Assembly: GCA_030432565.1 (NCBI GenBank)
Contig: JAUIGV010000014.1
Coordinates: forward strand, 1 to 64,000
Source of the DNA: Verrucomicrobiia bacterium
GTDB lineage: Bacteria; Verrucomicrobiota; Verrucomicrobiia; Verrucomicrobiales; Akkermansiaceae
Reading direction: 5' to 3'
Length of the DNA stretch: 64,000 bases
Position 1 is the stretch's first letter; the number at the start of each line of letters is the position of its first letter. Positions 16,279 through 62,883 of the stretch are shown here, in pieces. A program made the translations under genes and the position numbers. The notes under the pieces are model-generated. The model did not search any database and was not told the DNA's origin. It saw nothing but the letters and a program-made list of their open reading frames with translations.

Positions 16279-17094
16279 CTACTTGTCTGTAAAGACCTCA
16301 AAGTAGAGCTGGCGGTATGCGAGGAAGCTGACCCAGTTTCGCAGGGCATACCCACTGTTTTTGAGATTGTCTTGATCATATAAATTGGTCTTTCCTCCCG
16401 AGGGGTGAACGCCGTCTTTGGAAATAATTGTGCCGTCCCAGGTTTTGCCCGGGCGCATGCGCAGACAGGCCGCGTGGAAGTCGACCAGTGGTAGCTTCTG
16501 GGCAGCCGCAATCTCGCGGACGATGACATTGACGGCGGCGACCGCTTCGTCGTGATCGCGGCGCGGCGGGATGGTATTCAAAATCGGAATACAGTGAGCA
16601 GCGAGACACTTGGCCACCACCTTCTCAAGGCCCTCCCGATACCCTTCCGGAACCTTTTTCCCGTTGATGTCATTGGTGCCGATCATGATGAGCGCGGCCT
16701 CCGGTTTGTCGCGCGCAATCACGGCCTCGATTGACTTGAGAATGTTTCCGACTTTCCAGCCGGAGTAGTTGGCAAACTTTGGTCCCTTGTCACGGGCACC
16801 TTTGATGACGTTCTTCCACTGCTTGTCGGGAGGCGTTTTCGGCAATCCATCGTCAGCGGTGAGAAACTTTCCGGGATCGGACCAGCTCATCGCCGACCAG
16901 AATGCCATTGAGTAAGTAATCGAATCGCCGAACTGAGCCACCCTTCCTCTCTCTCCCTCGAAACCCGCATGGATTTCGCGCGCACGTTTCACGACCTCCG
17001 GCGAAAGCTTATCGGGAGCAGCACTTGCAACATTTGCCAAAGACAAAAAAGACACCGCTAACAGCCCTCTGATCAAAAAACGAAACCCAATCAT
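16279..17094 (-). CDS. Secreted SGNH/GDSL-type hydrolase
   Basis: A 271-residue exported esterase-like protein with a signal peptide ending at ASA-A. Block I is FGDSITYS with nucleophile Ser58. The block II glycine is in NYSGWKVGN. Block III is MIGTNDING, with the catalytic-loop Asn. Block V is DGVHPSGG, with Asp227 and His230 completing the triad. SGNH enzymes of this type remove acyl groups, commonly acetyl, from carbohydrates, which fits the sulfatase-rich setting; the substrate is inferred. The start is divergent from the tail-sheath gene, with 144 bases between the start codons. Confidence 0.85.
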   Translation of the reverse strand: MIGFRFLIRGLLAVSFLSLANVASAAPDKLSPEVVKRAREIHAGFEGERGRVAQFGDSITYSMAFWSAMSWSDPGKFLTADDGLPKTPPDKQWKNVIKGARDKGPKFANYSGWKVGNILKSIEAVIARDKPEAALIMIGTNDINGKKVPEGYREGLEKVVAKCLAAHCIPILNTIPPRRDHDEAVAAVNVIVREIAAAQKLPLVDFHAACLRMRPGKTWDGTIISKDGVHPSGGKTNLYDQDNLKNSGYALRNWVSFLAYRQLYFEVFTDK

Positions 17095-17238
17095 CGTTCC
17101 TGTTTACGTGATCACCCGGCAGCCCCCAATAAGAAAGATTCCCAAAAAGATCTTGGCGCAACAGACCGGAGTCCTACTCTCCAGTGTCATTTGGGCTATG
17201 AGGGAAGATAGGTGACACAAACTAAAATCAGGATCCAG

Positions 17239-18798
17239 ATGTCACCACCAAATTTTAAAACACCCGGAGTCTATATCAATGAACTGAATGCATTTCCAAA
17301 TTCAGTCGTGCAGGTCCCGACGGCCGTCCCAGCCTTCATTGGCTACACCCCTCAGGCCGAATATGAAGGCCGGTCCTATTTCAACCTCGCGGAGAAGATC
17401 TCTTCATTTGCGGATTTCAAAGCGATCTACTGCAATCCAAATCCGGCTCCGCCTGCCGATCCCGCCAAGCAATACAGCCCCCAATATTATCTCGTCGAGA
17501 GTGAGAGCAAGCCGGAGAAGGGGGCAGCCGTCGAGATCAGCGGGAAACACTACGCCATCGTTCCCGACCCCAATACAATCTACCACCTCTATAACTGCAT
17601 TCGCATGTTCTACCAAAACGGCGGCGGGGATGCTTATATCGTAGCCGTCGGTCCGTATGGTTCCCCTTCCGGTTCACCTGCTCAATCCGGCGGGCCGATT
17701 GTAAACCCCAATGTCAAACTGGCGGACCTCCGGTCCGGACTGGAGTTATTGAAGAACAAAGTGGAGCCGACGATGTATCTCTGCCCGGAAGCAACGCTGC
17801 TCCCGGTTGCGGAGAATGGCACTCTCATGCAGGAAATGTTGGGTCAAAGCGAAGGCATGGGAACCGCACTCAGCATCTTTGATATCATCGGAGGAAAGCA
17901 TCCCGACCCGATCCTTTTTACGAGTGACATTGAGACCTTTCGTAACAATACCGGATCGGAGGGCCTCCGCTATGGAGCAAGCTACTATCCTTTTATCGAG
18001 ACCACCACGATGGCCCGCGAGGAGCTCAACTACACAAACTTGTTCGGTGGTGATCTGAAGCAACTCAAACCGCTGCTCAATCCGTCCGCCGGAAAAATCA
18101 TCGAAATGATCGAGAATCCACCGGCCAATCCGCTCACCGAAAGCCAGCATGATCGAGCCCTCCTCAATGCCAGCAAGACCTACGGCAAGATCATGGAACT
18201 CGTCTTGAAGGACGCCAACATTCTCCCTCCCAGCGGAGCGATAGCCGGAATTTATACCAGAAACGACAATGATCTCGGAGTTTGGCATGCGCCTGCAAAC
18301 GTCGGCATCGAAGGAGTCAGTGACGTCACAATACGGCTTACCGACTCGCAGCAGCAAAATCTGAATGTCGATGCGGCTTCCGGAAAGTCAGTCAATGCGA
18401 TCCGTTATTTTAGCGGGTTGGGGATCCTGATCTGGGGAGCACGAACCCTTGATGGCAATAGTGCGGATTGGCGATATATCCCCGTGCAACGTCTCATCAC
18501 CATGATCGAACAGTCCTGCAAGCTGGCGATCCGCGCCTATGTCTTCGAGGCAAACGACGCGAACACGTGGCTCGCAGTCAAATCCCTGATCGCAAGTTTT
18601 CTCACGAACATCTGGAAGGAAGGAGGATTGCAAGGCACCTCGCCGGACGACGCCTTTCAGGTCAATTGCGGCCTCGGAAACACCATGACGCCCGACGATC
18701 TTCTCAACGGAATCATGAATGTTACTATCCTCGTAGCTGCCATCCACCCGGCTGAATTTACCGTCATCACAATTTCGCAGGAAATGGAGACGGCCTAG
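17239..18798 (+). CDS. Orphan contractile-tail sheath protein
   Basis: The protein has the signature ends of tail sheath proteins of phages and extracellular contractile injection systems. The N-terminus is FKTPGVYINELNAFPNSV followed by PAFIGYT. The C-terminus includes NIWKEGGLQG and ends AAIHPAEFTVITISQE, the usual last strands used for sheath-sheath contacts. The ATG at 17239 has AGGA about seven bases upstream and gives 519 residues, a normal length; a GTG at 17212 is possible but less likely. Conserved families form a six-start helical sleeve around a tube. No tube, baseplate, AAA ATPase, spike or lysis gene is in the window: neighbours are an SGNH hydrolase and fhs. It has no signal peptide. 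Confidence 0.85.
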   Translation: MSPPNFKTPGVYINELNAFPNSVVQVPTAVPAFIGYTPQAEYEGRSYFNLAEKISSFADFKAIYCNPNPAPPADPAKQYSPQYYLVESESKPEKGAAVEISGKHYAIVPDPNTIYHLYNCIRMFYQNGGGDAYIVAVGPYGSPSGSPAQSGGPIVNPNVKLADLRSGLELLKNKVEPTMYLCPEATLLPVAENGTLMQEMLGQSEGMGTALSIFDIIGGKHPDPILFTSDIETFRNNTGSEGLRYGASYYPFIETTTMAREELNYTNLFGGDLKQLKPLLNPSAGKIIEMIENPPANPLTESQHDRALLNASKTYGKIMELVLKDANILPPSGAIAGIYTRNDNDLGVWHAPANVGIEGVSDVTIRLTDSQQQNLNVDAASGKSVNAIRYFSGLGILIWGARTLDGNSADWRYIPVQRLITMIEQSCKLAIRAYVFEANDANTWLAVKSLIASFLTNIWKEGGLQGTSPDDAFQVNCGLGNTMTPDDLLNGIMNVTILVAAIHPAEFTVITISQEMETA

Positions 18799-18918: not shown

Positions 18919-20577
18919 CTAGCTGAGTCCCACGATGTCGCCCGCTTCATTGACATCAATATGCTCCGCTGCCGGAATGCGGGGAAGACCCGGCATCGTC
19001 ATAATCTCCCCCGTCAAGGCTACAACAAAACCGGCACCGGCAGAGAGACGCACTGATGTCACCGGAAGTGTAAATCCGGTCGCGGCACCACGGCGATCGG
19101 GGTCGGCACTAAAACTGTATGGCGTCTTGGCGATACAAACGGGATACCGGCCCGCCGCGGTTTTATCCCAATTCTGCAATTGTTTTTCGACAGCCGGAGT
19201 CATCTCGATATCGTCCGCCCGGTAAACCTCGCGAGCGACCCTCTTGATCTTTTCGGCAAGCGGAAGATGATCGGGATAAAGCGGAGTAAAGGAGGACTCC
19301 TTCTGCTCATCCACCAGAGAGGCCACCGCCTTCGCGAGCTCCTCGGCACCTTTCCCGCCCTCGGCCCAATGGCGGGCCAAAACGCAAGGCACGCCAATGC
19401 CGTCACAAAGATCGCGGAGGGCCTGCGTCTCGGCTTCGGTATCGGCATCAAAGGCATTCACCGCCACGATGGCCGGAACCCCAAATTTGGAGATATTTTC
19501 CAAATGTCGTTGAAGGTTGGCGAAGCCTCTCGTGACCGCTTCGACATTCCCGGCTTCCAAATCCTTTCGGTCGACTCCTCCGTGATATTTGAGCGCTCGG
19601 ATTGTCGCGACAACCACGGCCGCCTGCGGGGTGAGCCCTGCCTTGCGACACTTGATATCGAAGAATTTCTCGGCTCCCAGATCTGCGCCGAATCCAGCCT
19701 CGGTCACGACATAATCAGCAAGTCCAAGCGCTGTTTTAGTCGCGATCACCGAGTTACAACCGTGGGCAATATTGGCAAAAGGACCACCGTGGACAAGGGC
19801 GGGGGTTTGCTCCAGCGTCTGGACCAAATTGGGAAGAAAAGCGTCCTTCAAAAGGGCCGTCATCGCGCCATGTGCCTTGAGATCCGAAGCGAGAACATCC
19901 TTTTTTTCAAGACTGCGACCAATCACGATTCGCCCCAAACGCTCTTTCAAATCACTCAGGCTTTCCGCAAGACAGAAGATCGCCATCACCTCCGATGCCA
20001 CCGTAATGTCCGCTCCGGTCTCGTTGGCAAATCCATTTCCCTTCCCGAGCCCGGTCATCAACTGCCGCAGGGACCGGTCATTGAGATCAACCGCCCGACG
20101 CCAGGTGATTTTACGCAGATCAATCTTTAGGGCGTTCCCCCAGTGGAGATGATTGTCGATCATGGCCGAGAGAAGATTGTTGGCCGCTCCAATTGCGTGA
20201 AAATCCCCTGTAAAGTGCAGATTGATTTCATCCATCGGAACAACCTGCGCATATCCTCCGCCAGCGGCCCCACCCTTCATGCCAAACGAAGGTCCGAGAC
20301 TGGGCTCGCGCAGACAGATCATCGATTTTTTCCCAATTCGGTTCAGCCCGTCTCCGAGTCCGACTGTCGTGGTGGTCTTGCCTTCACCAGCCGGTGTGGG
20401 GGAAATGGCGGTGACCAGAATGAGCTTTCCCGACCGGCCGCCTGACGCTGCCGGGATCACCTTCGCCTTATGTTTTCCATACGGAATCAGTCGCTCCTCA
20501 TCGAGAGCGAGCTGCTCCCTGGCAAGCTCGGCAATCGGTTGCAAGGTAGCGTTTCGAGCGATCTCAATATCCGTCAT
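18919..20577 (-). CDS. fhs: Formate-tetrahydrofolate ligase
   Basis: This enzyme makes 10-formyltetrahydrofolate from formate, tetrahydrofolate and ATP in the cytoplasm. The ATG at 20577 gives 552 residues, close to the family length of about 555-560; a seven-codon extension upstream is unlikely. The ATP-binding loop is [14 protein letters not shown] (61-74). Other hallmarks are [12 protein letters not shown] and [13 protein letters not shown], and the chain ends with the [11 protein letters not shown] region. It is one of the few housekeeping enzymes in the window. No other one-carbon gene (folD, formate dehydrogenase) is adjacent, so a full acetogenic pathway is not implied. Confidence 0.95.
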
Positions 20578-20652
20578 GCGGTCCAGTAGCAGGAGCAATC
20601 CAAACTGTCAAAATGATCCCGATGGTGAATTCCAACGACAAGAAAGAGGCCT

Positions 20653-20677
20653 GAAAAAATCCCCAATCACTTTGGGA
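20653..20677 (-). terminator. Intrinsic terminator of the truncated minus-strand ORF
   Basis: On the minus strand CCCAA pairs with TTGGG around a five-base loop and is followed by GATTTTTT. The TGA stop of the ORF at 20667 lies in this hairpin. Such tight placement suggests the ORF is the real 3' end of a gene. Confidence 0.55.
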
Positions 20678-20915
20678 AAGTCCCGATTTGAAGCCAAAGC
20701 GCCTGCACATCGACGGCAGTGGAACAAAAGACCGGGCTCCCATTGTCAGTCAGTGGGATTGCTGGATTCAGATTTTGATCCACCCGCACTCCATCAACGT
20801 AAAGACTCGTGCCGTATCCTTCCCCGGTCGTTGCGAATGGAATTTGAAGTTGTCTTTTGGGAAACTCCGCCCAACGCTTCTCCCTGGAATCGGAATATGA
20901 AAAAAAGTCGAACAT
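20667..20915 (-). pseudogene. 3' stub of a secreted or LamG-like gene
   Basis: The last 50-60 codons of this minus-strand frame look like real protein (GYGTSLYVDGVRVDQNLNPA, then PVFCSTAVDVQALW), resembling the closing strands of a LamG-like beta-sandwich. It ends exactly at an intrinsic terminator. Its 5' side runs into the start of the ThuA gene on the other strand, so no room remains for a complete gene. The likely explanation is a gene truncated by insertion or rearrangement of the ThuA segment. The family assignment is tentative. Confidence 0.4.
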
Positions 20916-21850
20916 GGTCTCTATCTGTCCTCCTCTCTCTCCTTGGGGCTTTACTCGCCGCTCCGCAAAGAAACGATTCCGCCCAAAAACCCAATAATCC
21001 CATGACCAAAGACGAAGTGATGGCGCTGACCGGAACGTTCGAAGGCGCCAAATTGAGTCGCGACGTTCGGATCCTCTGGCTCTCCGGCCCCGAAGATCAT
21101 CGCGGCGGCGAGCATGACTACATTCGCATTAAGGAACTGTTCGTTCCCATGCTGAAAAGCATTCCCCGCGTCACGGTTGACGAGGCATTTCAGTTTCCCA
21201 CCCGGGAGCAATTCGATCAGGCCGACCTTTTAATCCAGTATCTCCACCTGCCGGACCTCACCGACGAACAATTCACGATGTATCAGAAATTTGTCAACGA
21301 AGGCGGAAGGGTGGTTTCCATACACGAGTCATGCATCATGCGCCCCATTGAACGGGCCGAAAAGCTGGCCGAATGCATCGGCTGTTCGTGGAAGGGAAAT
21401 CAAACTTCGAAATGGAGTAAATTTGGGCACGATCACGCAGTTTATCTCAAGACCGATCATCCCGCGTTCGAGGGGCTGCCTGCCTCGGTCAAGCTCAATG
21501 ACGAATCCTACTGGAACCTGCTGAAGCGGAAGGACGTCGAAGTGATTGGAGTCATCGCCCCGGCCGGAGATGATCAATTCGAAAAGATCCTCAAGGCAGA
21601 CGATGTCCGCGGCGACGCCTTTTGGACTTACCGCACTGGCAAAGGCCGCGTCTTCGGGACTACGACCGGACACTACACCTACACTTTCCACGATCCGGTT
21701 TACCGGATCCTCCTCTTCCGCGGAATGGCATGGGCTCTGGAGGAAGATCCCGCACCCTTCATGCCCCTCGTGTTTCGTGGCATCACAAATGACAATGGCT
21801 CGGTAGGCACCACGAATGACATGATGGACTATCAAAACCGGAAACGTTAG
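20897..21850 (+). CDS. Secreted ThuA-domain protein
   Basis: Although the frame is open from 20222, only the part from the ATG at 20897 is protein-like: 317 residues with signal peptide MKKSRTWSLSVLLSLLGALL. The rest matches the ThuA (trehalose utilisation) fold, a glutamine-amidotransferase-like alpha/beta domain: ILWLSGPEDHRGGEHDY at the first strand, LLIQYLHLPDLTDEQFTMYQ, GGRVVSIHESC in place of the nucleophile loop, DHPAFEGLP and GKGRVFGTTTGHYTYTF near the end. ThuA proteins of Verrucomicrobiota and Planctomycetota often sit with secreted sugar enzymes; the biochemical role is not established. The gene overlaps the start of the minus-strand stub by 19 bases. Confidence 0.8.
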   Translation: MKKSRTWSLSVLLSLLGALLAAPQRNDSAQKPNNPMTKDEVMALTGTFEGAKLSRDVRILWLSGPEDHRGGEHDYIRIKELFVPMLKSIPRVTVDEAFQFPTREQFDQADLLIQYLHLPDLTDEQFTMYQKFVNEGGRVVSIHESCIMRPIERAEKLAECIGCSWKGNQTSKWSKFGHDHAVYLKTDHPAFEGLPASVKLNDESYWNLLKRKDVEVIGVIAPAGDDQFEKILKADDVRGDAFWTYRTGKGRVFGTTTGHYTYTFHDPVYRILLFRGMAWALEEDPAPFMPLVFRGITNDNGSVGTTNDMMDYQNRKR

Positions 21851-55154: not shown

Positions 55155-57500
55155 TCACCGATAGAGAAGTGCCCCCGCCCTTCTGCGCGCAAACTTCTCA
55201 AGCCCGCCCTCCCAGGATTTTATGATCTCTTTTCCGGGCTTCAAACTCTTGATCGCAGACTCCGTTTGGGGATGTCGTAAAAGAGTGTTCAGCTTTTGGG
55301 TTTCCCACTCTCGTGGATAAAGCTCCCGTAAGGTCTGCGCCAACAAAACACCAAACTCCACCGAAGGACATTTCGCGGGGTCTGTTAAAATGATGCGCAC
55401 TCCGCCACATTCTTCATTGGCAAACTTGCTCGCGGTGGGCGTGAAACGAACCGGCACAAATTCCAGCCCGGGAAGCCTGGCTGCGGAAAGCTTTCGAGCA
55501 AATGCCTCTTCGTCGATATAGCTCGCACCAAAAACCTCGAAAGGAAAGTTCGTCCCCCGCCCCACTGAGACATTGGTGAACTCTAGCAAACCCAACCCGG
55601 GATAAAGAGTGGCCGCTGCAAGATTCGGCATGTTCGGAGAGGGCTTGATCCACGGCAATCCGGTTTCATCAAAGCGCATTTCACGGGTCCAATTTTCAAC
55701 CGGAATCACGGTGAGCTTCAACTTGGGACAATGTTCCTTTTGATACAGTCTGGCAATTTCCCCAATTGTCATTCCGTGCTGCACCGGCACCTGGTGAAAG
55801 GAGGTGAAGGTTGGATCGCCATCACGCATGGGACCCGCCACCTTTGTCGCTCCGATGGGATTCACTCGATCAAGAACGACAAACTTCAAGCCTGCATCCT
55901 CCGCGGCTTCCATCGCCAGACCCATCGTCGAAATGAAGGTATAAAATCGCGTCCCGATATCCTGCATGTCAAAAACAAGGGCATCGACCTTCGCGAGATG
56001 TTCGGCCCTGGGTTTGCGACGATCTTCTCCGCCATAAAGACTCAGGACCGGCAGCTTCGTTTTGTCATCCACGCCATCCTCCACCTTGTCATCGAGAGTT
56101 CCCCGGATTCCGTGTTCAGGTCCAAAGAGCAATTTGAGGTCCACCTTGTCTGAACGGTGCAAGAGATCAATCGTGCTCACACGATCACGGTTGATTCCGG
56201 TTTGGTTTGTGATCAAACCCACACGCATTCCCTGGAGTGCTGCGAATTGATCCCGCTCCAGCACATCGATCCCATTCAGCACATTGGGAGAGCTGATCGG
56301 CTTTGGCACCACTTTCGGGAGAGTCTCTTTCACGGCCGAAAAATCAAAACCCGTCGCCTTTGCCGCGAACGTTCCCAGCCTCCTTCGCAAGGCGAGCACG
56401 TTGCCGCCGGAAGGATGGTTCCGATTACTTAGAAAAATAACAAAGCTCTCGCTCGCCCGATCGATCCACATCGAGGTCCCGGTCCACCCGGTGTGGCCAA
56501 ACGATCCTTTCGGGAACAACTCTCCCCGCAGCGAGGAATAGGGAGAATCAATATCAAACCCCAACCCCCGACGGGACTTGATACTCGATGGCGACTGCAC
56601 CGTGGTCATGAGACGGATCGTCTCAGGTTTCAAAACGCCCCCGCCTTCGTTCAACAACATCCGCGCAAACCGGGCCAAATCATCGGCCGTGCTGAAAAGC
56701 CCCGCATGCCCTGCGACACCACCCATGCGACGCGCCGTCGGGTCGTGCACGACTCCTCTCAAAAGACTCCCGTCGGCGAGAAGCGAGGTGGGAGCTATCC
56801 TGCCCTTCCACCTGGGATCCGGCAGAAAGAACGTCTCCTTCATTCCCAACGGGAGAAAGATCTCTCTGCGACAATACTCTTGAAGCGGTATTCCGGAAAC
56901 CCGTGCCACGATTTCGCCCAGCAGAATGAAGTTGAGATCACTATATCGATAAGTGAATCCCGCCCTACCACGGGACGACTCACCCGCAGCCAAGGCGACG
57001 CCGTTTTTGTAGCCACTCCACTCATAGCCACCACGCAATCCCGCCGCCAAACCCGAGGTGTGCGTCAGAAGATGGCGAATGGTAATCTTGGCCTTGTTGG
57101 CATCTCCACTTAACCGGGGAAGGTATCGTTGCGCCGGCGCATCCAATTCAACCTTTCCTTCCTCAATCAACTTCATCATCGAGAGAGTCGTTGCCACCAC
57201 TTTGGTCAAGGAGGCCAAATCGTATATGGTCTCCTTTGTCGCTTCTTCGACCTCCGGCACAAGCTGCCGTTTCCCATAGCTCTTCTGATAGGCCTCCTCC
57301 CTGTGTTCCAGATGAAGAACCCCGCCCGGCATCCGTCGATCAGAGATTGCCTTCTCAATGAGGTCATCGATCTCTCGCAACACCCCGGGGTTTAAACCCT
57401 GGGCAAAAGCCCCCGGGCATGTGGCGAGAAGAACAAGAAATCGAAGAATCACAAGGGCTGGCTTCCAATTGATAAGCTTCGATCTACTTGGACGGAGCAT
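55155..57500 (-). CDS. Serine hydrolase fused to NamZ (DUF1343)
   Basis: I chose the ATG at 57500: the next 781 residues start with a signal peptide (ALVILRFLVLLATCPGAFAQ), while the 107-codon extension upstream lacks protein character and would run deep into the next gene. The first half (about 40-390) is a class-C-like beta-lactamase fold with SLTK (Ser97-Lys100), YSD (Tyr186) and HTG (336-338). The second half (405-781) is DUF1343, the exo-beta-N-acetylmuramidase NamZ family, with LITNQTGINRDR, FGPEHGIRG, VFDMQDIGTRFYTF and LDRVNPIGA. NamZ releases N-acetylmuramic acid from peptidoglycan chains, so the fusion probably processes muropeptides in the periplasm. The start overlaps the end of the sulfatase gene by 17 bases. 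Confidence 0.85.
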   Translation of the reverse strand: MLRPSRSKLINWKPALVILRFLVLLATCPGAFAQGLNPGVLREIDDLIEKAISDRRMPGGVLHLEHREEAYQKSYGKRQLVPEVEEATKETIYDLASLTKVVATTLSMMKLIEEGKVELDAPAQRYLPRLSGDANKAKITIRHLLTHTSGLAAGLRGGYEWSGYKNGVALAAGESSRGRAGFTYRYSDLNFILLGEIVARVSGIPLQEYCRREIFLPLGMKETFFLPDPRWKGRIAPTSLLADGSLLRGVVHDPTARRMGGVAGHAGLFSTADDLARFARMLLNEGGGVLKPETIRLMTTVQSPSSIKSRRGLGFDIDSPYSSLRGELFPKGSFGHTGWTGTSMWIDRASESFVIFLSNRNHPSGGNVLALRRRLGTFAAKATGFDFSAVKETLPKVVPKPISSPNVLNGIDVLERDQFAALQGMRVGLITNQTGINRDRVSTIDLLHRSDKVDLKLLFGPEHGIRGTLDDKVEDGVDDKTKLPVLSLYGGEDRRKPRAEHLAKVDALVFDMQDIGTRFYTFISTMGLAMEAAEDAGLKFVVLDRVNPIGATKVAGPMRDGDPTFTSFHQVPVQHGMTIGEIARLYQKEHCPKLKLTVIPVENWTREMRFDETGLPWIKPSPNMPNLAAATLYPGLGLLEFTNVSVGRGTNFPFEVFGASYIDEEAFARKLSAARLPGLEFVPVRFTPTASKFANEECGGVRIILTDPAKCPSVEFGVLLAQTLRELYPREWETQKLNTLLRHPQTESAIKSLKPGKEIIKSWEGGLEKFARRRAGALLYR

Positions 57501-59373
57501 TGACTCTGATTTCCAACAACTTCCCACTGAACGTGGCCTTGGGAGCTTGTGGATCGACGGCATGAGCGTCATCAAAGCCCATACTAAAGTCTTCGGCGGG
57601 AACTCTGGTGATCCAATGATTTCCCCTGTCCGACTGAATGGGCTGACGCTTGCCAACCTTAAGAAAAAGGCGACCGGAAACATCCAGTCCTGCCGAAAAC
57701 TCCACCTTACCCGGATCAACCGGTGCTTGAACCCGCTCAAGATGACCCTTCCCGGTCGAAACCGCAAAGACGAGATTTTCTTCCTTGAGGTATAGTCCGT
57801 AACCGACCTGCGTTCCACCATGAGCCATGACCACTTCGTTCACTTTTCCTTTGGTCTCAATCCCTCCGAAAATAGTAAATGGTTTCTTCACCAAATCAGG
57901 AACTTGCCCTGAAGAGAAGACGTCCCCAAGTTTCACTTTGGACCAATTGACCGGCTTACCACGGCGAACCGAGGCCCTGCGTTTTTGACTGGAGGGGTAC
58001 AACATCACCGGATTTTTCACCACGCCAACCGGGCGCTTGTTCTCTTTTATCTCAAGCTCCATCGCCGCAGCCAGCGCGGTCAGGCGCGCCACGACTTCCG
58101 GATGTTTCGCCGCAACATCGGTCGTCTCTCCGATTTCCTCATCAAGATTGTAGAGGCGACCCTTCTTCTTCAAATCCTCCGGTTTGTCCTTGAACCCCAT
58201 CCCGATACTCTGGGCCGTCACCGCCAGTTTCCACGGCCCCGATCGCACCGCCTGCAGGTTGTTTCCCCCGAAATAATACCACGCTTCACGTTTCGTTTGA
58301 TCGGCTTTTCCATCGAGAACCTGAGTCAGGTCATAGCCATCAATTTTAATTGAAGGGTCCGGTTTACCGCCTGCCAAAGTGACGAAAGTCGGGAGTAGAT
58401 CCGGCGTTCCCGAAATGGCATCGCTGGAAGCTCCGGCCTTCACCCGACCCGGCCACCAGGCGATGGTTGGAACCCGGACCCCACCCTCCAAGGTGCACCC
58501 TTTGGCACCGCGCAAGGGGCCGGAAACGCCTCCGGCCTTTCCTTTGGAAGCCCAGGGACCGTTATCCGAAGTAAAGATAACCAAAGTCTCTCTCTCGACA
58601 CCCGAGGTTTTGAGAGCTCCAAGAATTTCCCCGACACTCCAGTCTACTTCCCTGACCCAATCTCCATAAACACCATTGCTCGACGAACCAACGAAGTCTT
58701 TGTGCGGAAAGAGCGGCACGTGCATCGCGGTGTGCGGAAGGTACAGGAAAAAGGGTTTCTCCGCCCTGGCTTCGCGCTCGATGAAGGAAACCGCTTCCTC
58801 GGTGTACTCTCGCGTGACCCGACGCTGCCCTTCGTCCTCTAAAAGCTCCGCCACCTTTTCATCCCGCAACAGGGGCGTAACCCGCTTGCCGGACTCGGAC
58901 GAGGTCCGCTGCATGTCATTGGAATAGGGAATCCCAAAATACGAATCGAAACCCTGTCGTGTCGGGAGAAAATCCACTTGATCACCAACGTGCCACTTGC
59001 CCACACAGGCTGTGGCATACCCCAACTCTTTGAGGTAATCGGCAATCGTCTTTTCTTCCGGATTCAACCCATTCTTCCCGGCCGGAAAAAAGACTCCGGG
59101 CACCGACACGCGGGGAGCGTAGCACCCCGTCAGCAACTGGGCCCGCGACGCCGAACAAACCGGCGCCGCATAAAAGCTGGTGAGCTTCATTCCCTCTTCG
59201 GCCATGCGATTGAGATGCGGAGTCCGGTTCACTTTGGAACCGAAAGGTTCAATGTCCCCATAACCCATGTCATCGATGAAAATCACGACAAAGTTGGGCT
59301 TGGCATCCGCCGCCTGAACGAATGGAAGGAATCCCGGAAACGCGAAGAGTAAAAGGTGGAGTCGTAAAAACAT
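57484..59373 (-). CDS. Secreted sulfatase with extra C-terminal beta domain
   Basis: The ATG at 59373 gives 629 residues with a signal peptide ending near FVQAADA; the 26-codon extension would overlap the upstream sulfatase. Motifs: FIDDMGYGDIEPFG (metal), CSASR with Cys73 (the C-x-A-x-R variant, still matured to formylglycine), CVGKWHVGD and FTSDNGPWASKG. After the catalytic core (to about 500) an extra beta domain follows, with GYGLYLKEENLVFAVSTG and GRLFLKVG, perhaps carbohydrate-binding. It is 35 bases behind the sulfatase at 59409 and overlaps the NamZ fusion, so this is a three-gene operon. Confidence 0.9.
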   Translation of the reverse strand: MFLRLHLLLFAFPGFLPFVQAADAKPNFVVIFIDDMGYGDIEPFGSKVNRTPHLNRMAEEGMKLTSFYAAPVCSASRAQLLTGCYAPRVSVPGVFFPAGKNGLNPEEKTIADYLKELGYATACVGKWHVGDQVDFLPTRQGFDSYFGIPYSNDMQRTSSESGKRVTPLLRDEKVAELLEDEGQRRVTREYTEEAVSFIEREARAEKPFFLYLPHTAMHVPLFPHKDFVGSSSNGVYGDWVREVDWSVGEILGALKTSGVERETLVIFTSDNGPWASKGKAGGVSGPLRGAKGCTLEGGVRVPTIAWWPGRVKAGASSDAISGTPDLLPTFVTLAGGKPDPSIKIDGYDLTQVLDGKADQTKREAWYYFGGNNLQAVRSGPWKLAVTAQSIGMGFKDKPEDLKKKGRLYNLDEEIGETTDVAAKHPEVVARLTALAAAMELEIKENKRPVGVVKNPVMLYPSSQKRRASVRRGKPVNWSKVKLGDVFSSGQVPDLVKKPFTIFGGIETKGKVNEVVMAHGGTQVGYGLYLKEENLVFAVSTGKGHLERVQAPVDPGKVEFSAGLDVSGRLFLKVGKRQPIQSDRGNHWITRVPAEDFSMGFDDAHAVDPQAPKATFSGKLLEIRVNAPSK

Positions 59374-60918: not shown

Positions 60919-62265
60919 CTACAGGGTCCCCTTCACTGAAAGCCTCATGTAGTAATTGGTATCATCCTCCGCACCATCGGCCTGCGGAGAATCGTCGATA
61001 AAAACTCGGGCTTCCATGGGAGCATATCCGTTGTTGGGTTCTCCAATTCGGGTAATCTCAATTGCCGGACCACCTTTCTCACCAAACTTCTCCCATTTCT
61101 TCAAATCACGGGAACCCTCAAAGGTCTCACGCAAACTCACTTCGTCCACCGTCCGAAAGTATCTTATCAGGATTTCGGTTCCGTGCTTTTTCTTTTTCTG
61201 CGTCATGGTGAGCGCTTCATCCCTCAACGTGAATGCGGAAGGATCGGTCCCAAGAAAAAACTCCATGACATTCGTCATTTGGTCTCCGTCTGGATCACGG
61301 AGAGGTCGAATCACATCCGGGTCATCTTCCATCTCTTCAGCGAGAAAAGCTGCCAGATAATTCTCATAGGGTGTTTTTTCACCTGCGATGACGATGGGCA
61401 CTTCACGCGTCGAACTCCGGACGCCGTCCGAAAGGCTCAGCTTCATTCTATCCGTCCCGTTCTGGAGATTGCCGACTTGGAGGGATACCACCCTCGCCAA
61501 GCCATCGCCCTCCACACCAAGGACCTTCACCAGGCCCTCTTCCGGCGTGAGGACGGTGAATACCAGATTTTCCGGAATTTTTGCAGGATCGATAAGGCCA
61601 ACCCTAAACTCAAAAATTTCACCGGGAATCACCTTGAGGGGAGAAACCGGGGAAATGGTGGGCGGACTAACATCCGGCTGATTCAAAACCCCGCCCTCAT
61701 TGGTCGCCAGATTCCACGTCGACCCCACATGCTCAATGCCTTCATTGGCATCTGTCTTGGTGTTGTGCCACTCGATGACGTCAAATTGGAAACCCACCTC
61801 TTCAAACAAATCCGAACTCCCCTGCCCCTTGTAGATCTTCTGCTGTGTCAGGCGAACACCTCGCATTCGGTAGCTTGTCTCGACTCCCGGACCACGCTCA
61901 ATGTCAATTCGCAAACCCTCAAAGACCTTGCCCTGAAGCATGCCGCGCAAAAGATAGGGTGATGATTTATCAATACGCTTCCTAAGAATAAACGGGCCGG
62001 CCTCCGGCGCCCCCAAGGTCCTCGCCGTACCTGATTCGGGATCACTCGAAACCCCGGAGCCCAACCCGGTCACATCAATCCAATCCGCGCGACCAGCTCG
62101 ATTTGATTCGCCAGCGACTCCCGCTAATCTCGCGTAGATTCTCTCCTGGGAAAAGGTGACACTACAAAGCGACATTGAAATGATCGCAAGTGGAATGAGG
62201 ACGTCCGTTGGGAAAGACCTTCCCAATGGCTCACTCTTATTTCCGACCGAAATCACTGCATTCAT
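60919..62265 (-). CDS. Secreted Hcp-fold protein with C-terminal calcium and sorting-like module
   Basis: A 448-residue protein with a signal sequence (LIPLAIISMSLCSVTFS). Residues about 42-200 follow the Hcp (type VI secretion tube) pattern: RIYARLAGVAGESNRAGRA, a WIDVTG turn, ILRKRIDKSSPYL in the centre, and EEVGFQFDVIEWH at the closing strand. The second half is unrelated to Hcp: an Ig-like region (about 210-300), a calcium-type repeat DPDGDQMTNVMEFFLGTDP and a last beta module with SRDLKKW and a YYMRLSVKGTL end. T6SS Hcp is normally cytoplasmic and lacks a signal peptide, so this is a domesticated, exported variant. It follows the other Hcp-fold gene by 8 bases. Confidence 0.75.
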   Translation of the reverse strand: MNAVISVGNKSEPLGRSFPTDVLIPLAIISMSLCSVTFSQERIYARLAGVAGESNRAGRADWIDVTGLGSGVSSDPESGTARTLGAPEAGPFILRKRIDKSSPYLLRGMLQGKVFEGLRIDIERGPGVETSYRMRGVRLTQQKIYKGQGSSDLFEEVGFQFDVIEWHNTKTDANEGIEHVGSTWNLATNEGGVLNQPDVSPPTISPVSPLKVIPGEIFEFRVGLIDPAKIPENLVFTVLTPEEGLVKVLGVEGDGLARVVSLQVGNLQNGTDRMKLSLSDGVRSSTREVPIVIAGEKTPYENYLAAFLAEEMEDDPDVIRPLRDPDGDQMTNVMEFFLGTDPSAFTLRDEALTMTQKKKKHGTEILIRYFRTVDEVSLRETFEGSRDLKKWEKFGEKGGPAIEITRIGEPNNGYAPMEARVFIDDSPQADGAEDDTNYYMRLSVKGTL

Positions 62266-62273
62266 CTTAAATT

Positions 62274-62831
62274 CTAAACTCCGGCCGTGAGATCGAACTC
62301 GATCTCGTGCTCATCTCCCGCCGAGTGATCGTCTGCCTGCTCCACGTACTTATAGTTGATGGTTTCGAAGGTAAAACCAACTTCCTCAACGGGGGTGTCC
62401 AAAGCATCCTTTGACTGCACTTCGTAGGATGTGACCCTCACGTTGCTCATGGTGATGACAAGATAGTCAAGGTGTGCTTCCCCGGAGTCTTTTCGAACAG
62501 CGAGAGTCGCCTCGGGGAGAACCCGGCTATTCATTGCTGCCAAGGCCAAATAGGGCGAGGACTTATCAATAAACTTTCTGACCTTAAGTGGTCCGACCTT
62601 CGCACGTGCACGCGTCCTTCCTCCATCCACTGATGAACTGTCGCTCTCGATCTTCCATTCAATACCGTGGACATCGATCTCCTCCTCGTGATCTGCTCTT
62701 TGTGACTCTCCGGGGATATCTCCGATCTTCAGATAGCCAGTCAGCGCCGCGTTCCCTCCCAACGGACAAAGGAGGGCTAGAAGGGCCAAATGGAAGAACC
62801 GACCTGGCTTGCGTAATAATCTTCTATTCAT
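62274..62831 (-). CDS. Secreted Hcp-fold protein
   Basis: The ATG at 62831 gives 185 residues and a signal peptide (FFHLALLALLCPLGGNAA). The mature part covers a whole Hcp-like domain: LTGYLKIGDIPGESQRADHE, EEIDVHGIEW, KVGPLKVRKFIDKSSPYLAL (the typical D-K-SSP-L centre), VLPEATLAVRKDSGEAHLDY, VRVTSYEVQS and EEVGFTFETINYKY. Hcp forms hexameric rings that stack into the T6SS tube; no T6SS gene is in the window and export by Sec would place it outside the cytoplasm. An inverted repeat covers its start codon. It shares an operon with the longer homologue downstream. Confidence 0.8.
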   Translation of the reverse strand: MNRRLLRKPGRFFHLALLALLCPLGGNAALTGYLKIGDIPGESQRADHEEEIDVHGIEWKIESDSSSVDGGRTRARAKVGPLKVRKFIDKSSPYLALAAMNSRVLPEATLAVRKDSGEAHLDYLVITMSNVRVTSYEVQSKDALDTPVEEVGFTFETINYKYVEQADDHSAGDEHEIEFDLTAGV

Positions 62832-62850
62832 AGTAAATGATATACTATGA
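62828..62850. repeat. Inverted repeat over the Hcp start codon
   Basis: TCATAGTA and TACTATGA form a perfect eight-base inverted repeat with a seven-base AT-rich loop. One arm contains the ATG of the Hcp-fold gene at 62831. It may be an operator or an RNA hairpin that hides the start codon; only the repeat itself is seen. Confidence 0.6.
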
Positions 62851-62883
62851 GATGCTGAAGATTGAGTCAAGCTCGCAGAGTCT

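Follow-up and report, generated by a model that had tools for sequence, protein, structure and literature searches.

The window, i.e. the whole 64 kb stretch of DNA analyzed in this study, contains a gene for an eCIS-type contractile sheath between an SGNH hydrolase gene and fhs (Table 1). An earlier note on this DNA had described an intact, full-length sheath gene between these two neighbours, with which both the frame (519 codons, no internal stop codon, stop ending at 18798) and Pfam agree. The first possible start of the frame is an in-frame GTG at 17212; the extension that it would add is probably untranslated, because AGGA, in line with the ribosome site recognized previously, precedes the ATG at 17239 by five bases and because aligned homologues start near this ATG. 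No consensus promoter was matched on the + strand of the upstream intergenic region.

Table 1. Features at and around the sheath gene, with positions in the window.
Feature	Positions	Strand	Remarks
GDSL/SGNH hydrolase gene	16279..17094	-	Divergent upstream neighbour; Pfam
Intergenic region, divergent from SGNH hydrolase gene	17095..17211	.	Expected site of the sheath promoter, provided that the gene is transcribed on its own
In-frame upstream extension from GTG	17212..17238	+	Probably untranslated
eCIS-type contractile sheath gene	17239..18798	+	519 aa, ATG start; subtilisin-like sheath domain and sheath C-terminal domain
fhs (formate-tetrahydrofolate ligase)	18919..20598	-	Convergent downstream neighbour; Pfam

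The product is a true eCIS sheath. It matched Phage_sheath_1C with 40 bits (cut-off 26.9) and Phage_sheath_1 with 32.5 bits (cut-off 31.4), so that PF04984 and PF17482, by which the superfamily was recognized, both lie above their curated cut-offs. The sheath fold was likewise found in an AlphaFold model (31 homologues used; pLDDT 87.8, pTM 0.87, residues 1-20 below 50), for which the top Foldseek match was the AlgoCIS sheath (7ae0; E 1.4e-38, TM 0.66) and which also matched the Anabaena CIS sheath All3325 (7b5h; E 1.6e-34, TM 0.65). Both are also strong matches in sequence (7adz, E 4e-85; 7b5h, E 9e-76); the best sequence match among solved structures was 9r9h_T, a 'Phage tail sheath family protein' (E 5e-108) of 519 aa, the same length as the window sheath. 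By Pfam, the protein is of the single-protein Phage_sheath_1 type, as compared with the TssB/TssC-type sheath of type VI secretion, and no hydrophobic export-like leader was seen by eye. However, AlgoCIS has a tube, spike, baseplate and cap, as described in PMC8894135, whereas the window gene stands alone.

Surroundings of the gene and search for partners

Six-frame translations of the whole window (stretches of 40 aa or more) were searched with ten home-made profiles of other eCIS components, and none was found at E 0.01; there is thus no operon of many core genes, and the sheath is the only eCIS component in 64 kb. In addition, 37 non-overlapping frames of at least 150 aa were scanned with Pfam at thresholds of 1, 0.01 and 1e-5 (frame 20222-21847 from 20957 onwards only). 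Among these frames, neither an AAA ATPase family nor LysM was seen, no phage gene was found besides the sheath, and no tail part was found beyond the sheath and two Hcp-fold proteins. The families present include many sulfatases, CotH/LTD proteins, ABC transporters, planctomycete-type cytochrome domains and DUF1552; the sulfatases, these cytochrome domains and DUF1552 would fit an origin in Verrucomicrobiota or in a phylum close to it. The expectation that no tube, baseplate or AAA ATPase would lie near the sheath therefore held throughout the 64 kb. The window has no tRNA, no mobile-element gene adjoins the sheath by Pfam, and the search for flanking repeats gave nothing usable.

The Hcp-fold (PF05638) proteins previously noticed about 42 kb from the sheath were confirmed by Pfam as a tandem pair at 60919-62265 (E 2e-14) and 62274-62870 (E 4e-32), which adjoins an LTD-domain protein; signal peptides are apparent by eye. 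They were rejected as a tube partner, since Pfam assigns them to Hcp, they gave no match to the eCIS tube profiles and they appear to be exported.

The search was extended to the host assembly (5,927,505 bases in 82 contigs; estimated 97.32% complete and 0.19% contaminated), in which the only Phage_sheath_1 match is the window gene itself. No GPW_gp25 was detected by Pfam, which did detect it in two control genomes. Home-made eCIS alignments gave no tail tube (tubes were found in 11 of the 17 genomes searched), no spike (found in nine of 15) and no gp6/J baseplate wedge (found in six of 15, one of which, G140, rests on a 36-residue match at E 1e-3 only). The Pfam search for Phage_T4_gp19 also gave no match and is uninformative, because no control genome responded either. 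The genome-wide check for tube and gp25 partners that had been recommended thus found neither, and the split injection system proposed earlier is disfavoured, with tube, spike, gp25 and wedge all not found.

Relatives and other lone sheaths

A pattern scan of 84,980 species, each represented by one genome, gave 77 loci with relatives. The nearest are 56-69% identical, are hosted by Vibrio, Pseudoalteromonas, Bermanella, Undibacterium and Bacteroidota, and mostly lie within eCIS operons. Both flanks reach 5 kb or more at 61 loci, of which 50 carry five or more eCIS components besides the sheath, three carry one to three and eight carry none (L019, L025, L041, L042, L045, L047, L054 and L055). 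The 16 loci outside this count have a flank below 5 kb; one of them, L043, is also lone, with only 3 kb of upstream sequence. Within the group L018-L053 (36 loci, approximately 55-68% identical in the scan, 30 with such flanks), 21 are operon, three partial and six lone. The sheaths nearest on the tree, from Vibrio sp. MEBiC08052 (L018), Pseudoalteromonas (L020, L022, L023) and Bermanella (L050), are 66-69% identical to the window sheath and, unlike it, are flanked by tube, LysM, spike, PAAR, gp25 and wedge genes. Intact lone frames like that of the window occur in Undibacterium flavidum (L043), Mucilaginibacter sp. L3T2-6 (L041) and Algoriphagus pacificus (L045), as well as in an Owenweeksia MAG (L042) and the genome G330 (L129), all five with no eCIS gene nearby; they form no single clade with the window gene.

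The lone sheaths are of two kinds: some coexist with an eCIS at another place in the genome, and for others no eCIS is detectable. In the genomes of L025, L041, L043 and L047, tubes occur elsewhere than beside the lone sheath. The first three hold an eCIS gene cluster elsewhere, so that the Undibacterium (L043) and Mucilaginibacter (L041) genomes differ from that of the window, and in L047 (an Aequorivita MAG) the sheath lies far from two tubes and a spike, apparently on the same contig, with a weak PAAR match and no wedge. The eCIS alignment found no tube genome-wide in the genomes of L019, L042, L054 and L055, which are MAGs of untold completeness. The window sheath belongs to the kind without a detectable eCIS in the genome. 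Dispersed or reduced sets were also found. In Pedobacter ghigonis (L036), sheath, tube, spike and PAAR are interspersed with other genes, with no wedge; Mucilaginibacter conchicola (L044) has a sheath and a tube, with a spike fragment and PAAR on another contig, two weaker spike matches besides and no wedge; and in G140 (stretches L095 and L096), from the window's order, one contig carries a sheath and a tube and a second one a spike and PAAR, without a credible wedge.

When 199 neighbours of the lone sheaths at 20 loci were compared all against all, no neighbour proved common to most loci. The only matches were scattered pairs from apparently widespread families, which we take to be sulfatases, PQQ propellers, GTPases, efflux and cytochrome-type proteins. 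The SGNH hydrolase next to the window sheath matched no neighbour of the 19 other lone loci at E 1e-6. Two individual loci are of separate interest. In L019 (8523-19343), a lone sheath 67% identical to that of the window begins 13 bases downstream of a tyrosine integrase stop codon, with HTH, HipA-like, ParB-like and DUF5681 genes behind it; no tube, spike or wedge was found in this MAG. In L054 (9902-11590), from a Parvularculaceae MAG, the lone sheath has by eye a twin-arginine-like hydrophobic leader ending in AVA.

Comparison with phages argues against a prophage origin. The top match in the phage collection covers 35% of the query at 38.5% identity, the best 20 of 171 records cover at most 40% and no record covers 80%, whereas eCIS sheaths match over the full length at up to 69% identity. 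A pattern scan of IMG/VR contigs, which detects close relatives only, gave no match. The sheath is thus of eCIS type, with neither a phage-type sheath nor phage genes nearby, and the prophage relic considered in the earlier note was rejected. Among plasmids, the best 20 of 122 matches reach 37.8% identity at full length and 44.6% over part of the query.

A maximum-likelihood tree was calculated from 44 sheaths (11 lone, four partial, 29 operon; L052, L053 and L073, which are cut by contig ends, were left out), the bootstrap of which is not fully settled. The lone label changes ten times on this tree, with at least eight changes forced by strongly supported branches, and shuffled labels change 9.9 times on average; the label is therefore scattered much as at random, and its number of changes does not distinguish gain from loss. 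The lone copies come from Bacteroidota, Pseudomonadota and the window's phylum. The window sheath pairs weakly (83/90) with the Bermanella operon sheath, the start of which is cut. We infer a transfer of the window sheath, and its direction, from the hosts of its 56-69% identical relatives and from the other genomes of its genus.

Among 27 genomes of the genus, including that of the window, a sheath match was found only in the latter and in G026, which carries a different type; the window type is thus absent from the other genomes, and 25 of these 26 have no sheath match at all. In the genus, fhs was also detected in 12 further genomes; its surroundings differ in the eight that were read, and an empty site could not be shown in these. 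In the phylum, 387 genomes at least 85% complete were selected. A sheath match was found in 14 (E 1e-10) and an eCIS-type tube in four (E 1e-5), all of which also have a sheath; therefore no tube occurs without a sheath in this sample, in which tubes are harder to detect. No credible eCIS gene lies beside the sheath in G000, G032, G035, G330, G425 and one of the two G269 copies, and the other eight of the 14 have a tube, spike, gp25 or more in the stretch examined. An earlier search adds lone sheaths in G026, G086, G104, G110, G122, G125 and G135.

In 12 of the 13 lone-sheath genomes of the phylum, no tube was found at E 0.01; the exception, G035, has one on another contig. No spike was found in 12 of the 13, and G330 has fragments only (a spike-like match at E 2.8e-9, in a stretch that gave no clear gene). 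The genome-wide tube search (E 1e-5) missed G513, G277 and G387, the phage-like tubes of which are visible locally at approximately 1e-7, and the absence of a tube is therefore a weaker result for G026, G032, G104, G110, G122, G125, G135, G269 and G425, all nine of which carry sheaths of other types than the window's (completeness 68% for G135, 75% for G125 and 86% for G110). The tube of G035 (L145:10165-10680) is itself a lone gene of gp19 type (PF06841, E 5e-40).

Three sheath-like proteins from phylum genomes (L101:9367-10785, L103:3553-5334 and L104:5212-6460) have by eye a signal-peptide-like N-terminus and an extra C-terminal segment, and the L104 copy is split over two frames. Their kinship to sheaths rests on the home-made sheath profile (E 3e-39 for L101 in G032, E 5e-30 for L103 in G135 and E 4e-11 for L104); Pfam gave no family for L101 and L104 and a sheath match below the cut-off for L103. 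These features suggest export of the sheath fold. In two other stretches, L102:7119-10410 and L142:10386-13959, a lone sheath lies near a SUFU-domain protein; the sheath and the SUFU gene are 90-92% identical between the two, and no other predicted gene of the stretches matched.

Codon usage and constraint

The GC3 of the window sheath is 0.63, within the range of the 37 window frames (0.50-0.69), and the sheaths of the 56-69% group have values of 0.19-0.54. Such host-like codon usage indicates long residence unless the donor resembled the host, an argument which assumes a donor like the known relatives.

Constraint was assessed against 17 operon sheaths, leaving out L050, L046 and L033 and the near-duplicates L020, L028, L035 and L048. 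The window sheath differs from the operon consensus at 167 positions. It keeps 208 of 227 operon-invariant columns, with 19 changed (8.4%; 18 substitutions and one gap), and approximately 51% of the remaining columns are changed, as calculated from the 167 differences. When each of the 17 operon sheaths was left out in turn, 0.4-5.4% of the invariant columns were missed; seven other lone copies missed 1.8-13.7%. Of the excluded rows, L050 and L046, the frames of which are cut or shortened, missed 25% and 14%, L033 missed 2.6% and the near-duplicates missed 0-0.9%. The median distance from the clade ancestor is 0.72 for lone copies (n = 8) versus 0.525 for operon copies (n = 24). In a neutral simulation, the frame stayed free of stops in 6% of runs after 100 substitutions and in 0.5% after 300. 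Because the changes avoid invariant columns, selection on the protein over its history is clear at the sequence level, and some relaxation of constraint in the window copy is likely.

Of 104 columns invariant in 26 operon sheaths, six are changed in the window sheath (positions 136, 417, 419, 508, 512 and 519). Such columns are missed 0-7 times in the other ten lone copies and 0-8 times in the four partial copies; five distant operon sheaths, left out in turn, miss 2-7 of 106-111, at much lower identity. Positions 417 and 419 are at the start of the model helix 414-436, and 508, 512 and 519 are in or after the last strand. In AlgoCIS, subunits interlock by a 'handshake' and an attachment helix contacts the tube, as PMC8894135 describes; in the window sheath, residues 508-519 would be the counterpart of the handshake, and 417-419 that of the attachment helix. 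Since the changes at 508, 512 and 519 would fall in the interlocking terminal region, assembly itself may be impaired.

Three lone orthologues from one other genus of the phylum gave pairwise dN/dS values of 0.24, 0.32 and 0.36, compared with 0.07-0.19 for neighbouring genes (three genes in one pair) and 0.25 for the SUFU-domain neighbour in another pair; by these estimates, selection on the lone orthologues is purifying but moderate. In the same pair, the dS of the sheath (0.25) exceeds that of the three neighbours (0.08-0.16), and the history of the sheath may therefore differ from theirs.

Explanations of a lone sheath

A sheath is not known to work apart from a tube and a baseplate, and without these it cannot inject. 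The window sheath, for which no tube was found, would therefore not inject anything. Of the three readings offered in the earlier note, a domesticated sheath is the best supported, as far as constraint and recurrence carry it; the genome gave neither another sheath nor an operon, in favour of a sheath that truly stands alone, although the gene is not conserved in the genus (n = 27). We give roughly even chances to the explanation that the eCIS sheath of the window was horizontally transferred and is now maintained alone. It would have arrived either with an operon that was later lost or as single-gene cargo, and purifying selection would since have retained it, probably in a role that involves self-assembly but no injection. 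According to PMC6357053, an isolated phage sheath protein self-assembles into polysheath without other viral proteins; by analogy, the lone protein would still fold and self-assemble via its terminal strands into short tubes or rings, and either the polymer or the subunit may be what is kept. The retained use might be structural or binding: the protein might form a scaffold in the cytoplasm, or enter a foreign sheath as a subunit and poison it. Against this explanation, the window copy is more relaxed than the operon copies and its assembly may be impaired, no promoter was matched on the + strand, and no shared neighbour hints at a function.

Relaxation would be expected of a slowly decaying relic, in which an eCIS was gained and then lost, leaving the sheath as the last intact piece under relaxed selection or none. 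The excess of changes at invariant columns over the operon copies, the greater distance of lone copies from the clade ancestor and the absence of the gene from other genomes of the genus fit such decay, as do the partial sets (sheath with tube; sheath, tube and spike) that an erosion series predicts. However, changes are about six-fold rarer at invariant columns than elsewhere, stops would probably have arisen during a long neutral period according to the simulation, the codon usage is that of the host, and no tube without a sheath was found among the 387 phylum genomes, in which tubes are harder to detect; a relic is considered less likely. Still less probable is a split or scattered injection system with partners located elsewhere, too diverged to be recognized or in the missing part of the assembly. 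Scattered parts do occur in G140, Pedobacter ghigonis and the Aequorivita MAG, the only tube of G035 lies on another contig, and the completeness estimate leaves approximately 2.7% of the window genome unaccounted for. However, tube, spike, wedge and gp25 would all have to be missed together in an assembly judged to be 97% complete, with a tube alignment that succeeded in 11 of 17 genomes.

There is only a slim chance that the gene is single-gene cargo of mobile elements, perhaps a decoy that would jam, by co-assembly, the contractile machines that phages or competitors use. This would agree with the L019 sheath lying directly after an integrase gene in a MAG with no detected tube, spike or wedge, and with the spread of lone copies over three phyla. 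However, no other integrase was noticed beside lone sheaths (the systematic Pfam scan covered the L019 neighbours), the window has no tRNA and no mobile-element gene adjoining its sheath, and the decoy role is a conjecture.

Beyond the window, it is tentatively proposed, as a possibility rather than an expectation, that bacteria repeatedly keep or transfer the sheath alone, as a protein that self-assembles and serves a purpose different from injection, possibly with exported versions in this phylum. If this is true, a recurrent, constrained lone sheath would be either a polymer with its own use or a mobile single gene acting as a decoy, both of which are directly testable in culturable hosts. 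Surveys based on operons would then miss part of the biology of contractile machines. The eCIS census in PMC8213781 required at least ten core genes per operon and would therefore not list lone sheaths; stand-alone sheaths would be a widespread class invisible to it. No paper on a stand-alone, orphan, remnant or domesticated sheath was found among the titles and abstract beginnings listed from open-licence papers, and no mention of a stand-alone sheath was found in excerpts of PMC9230969 and PMC10598620.

Elsewhere in the window, the frame 55158-57821 combines, by Pfam, a Beta-lactamase-family domain and an exo-N-acetylmuramidase NamZ domain, and is a candidate for a bifunctional wall-recycling protein.
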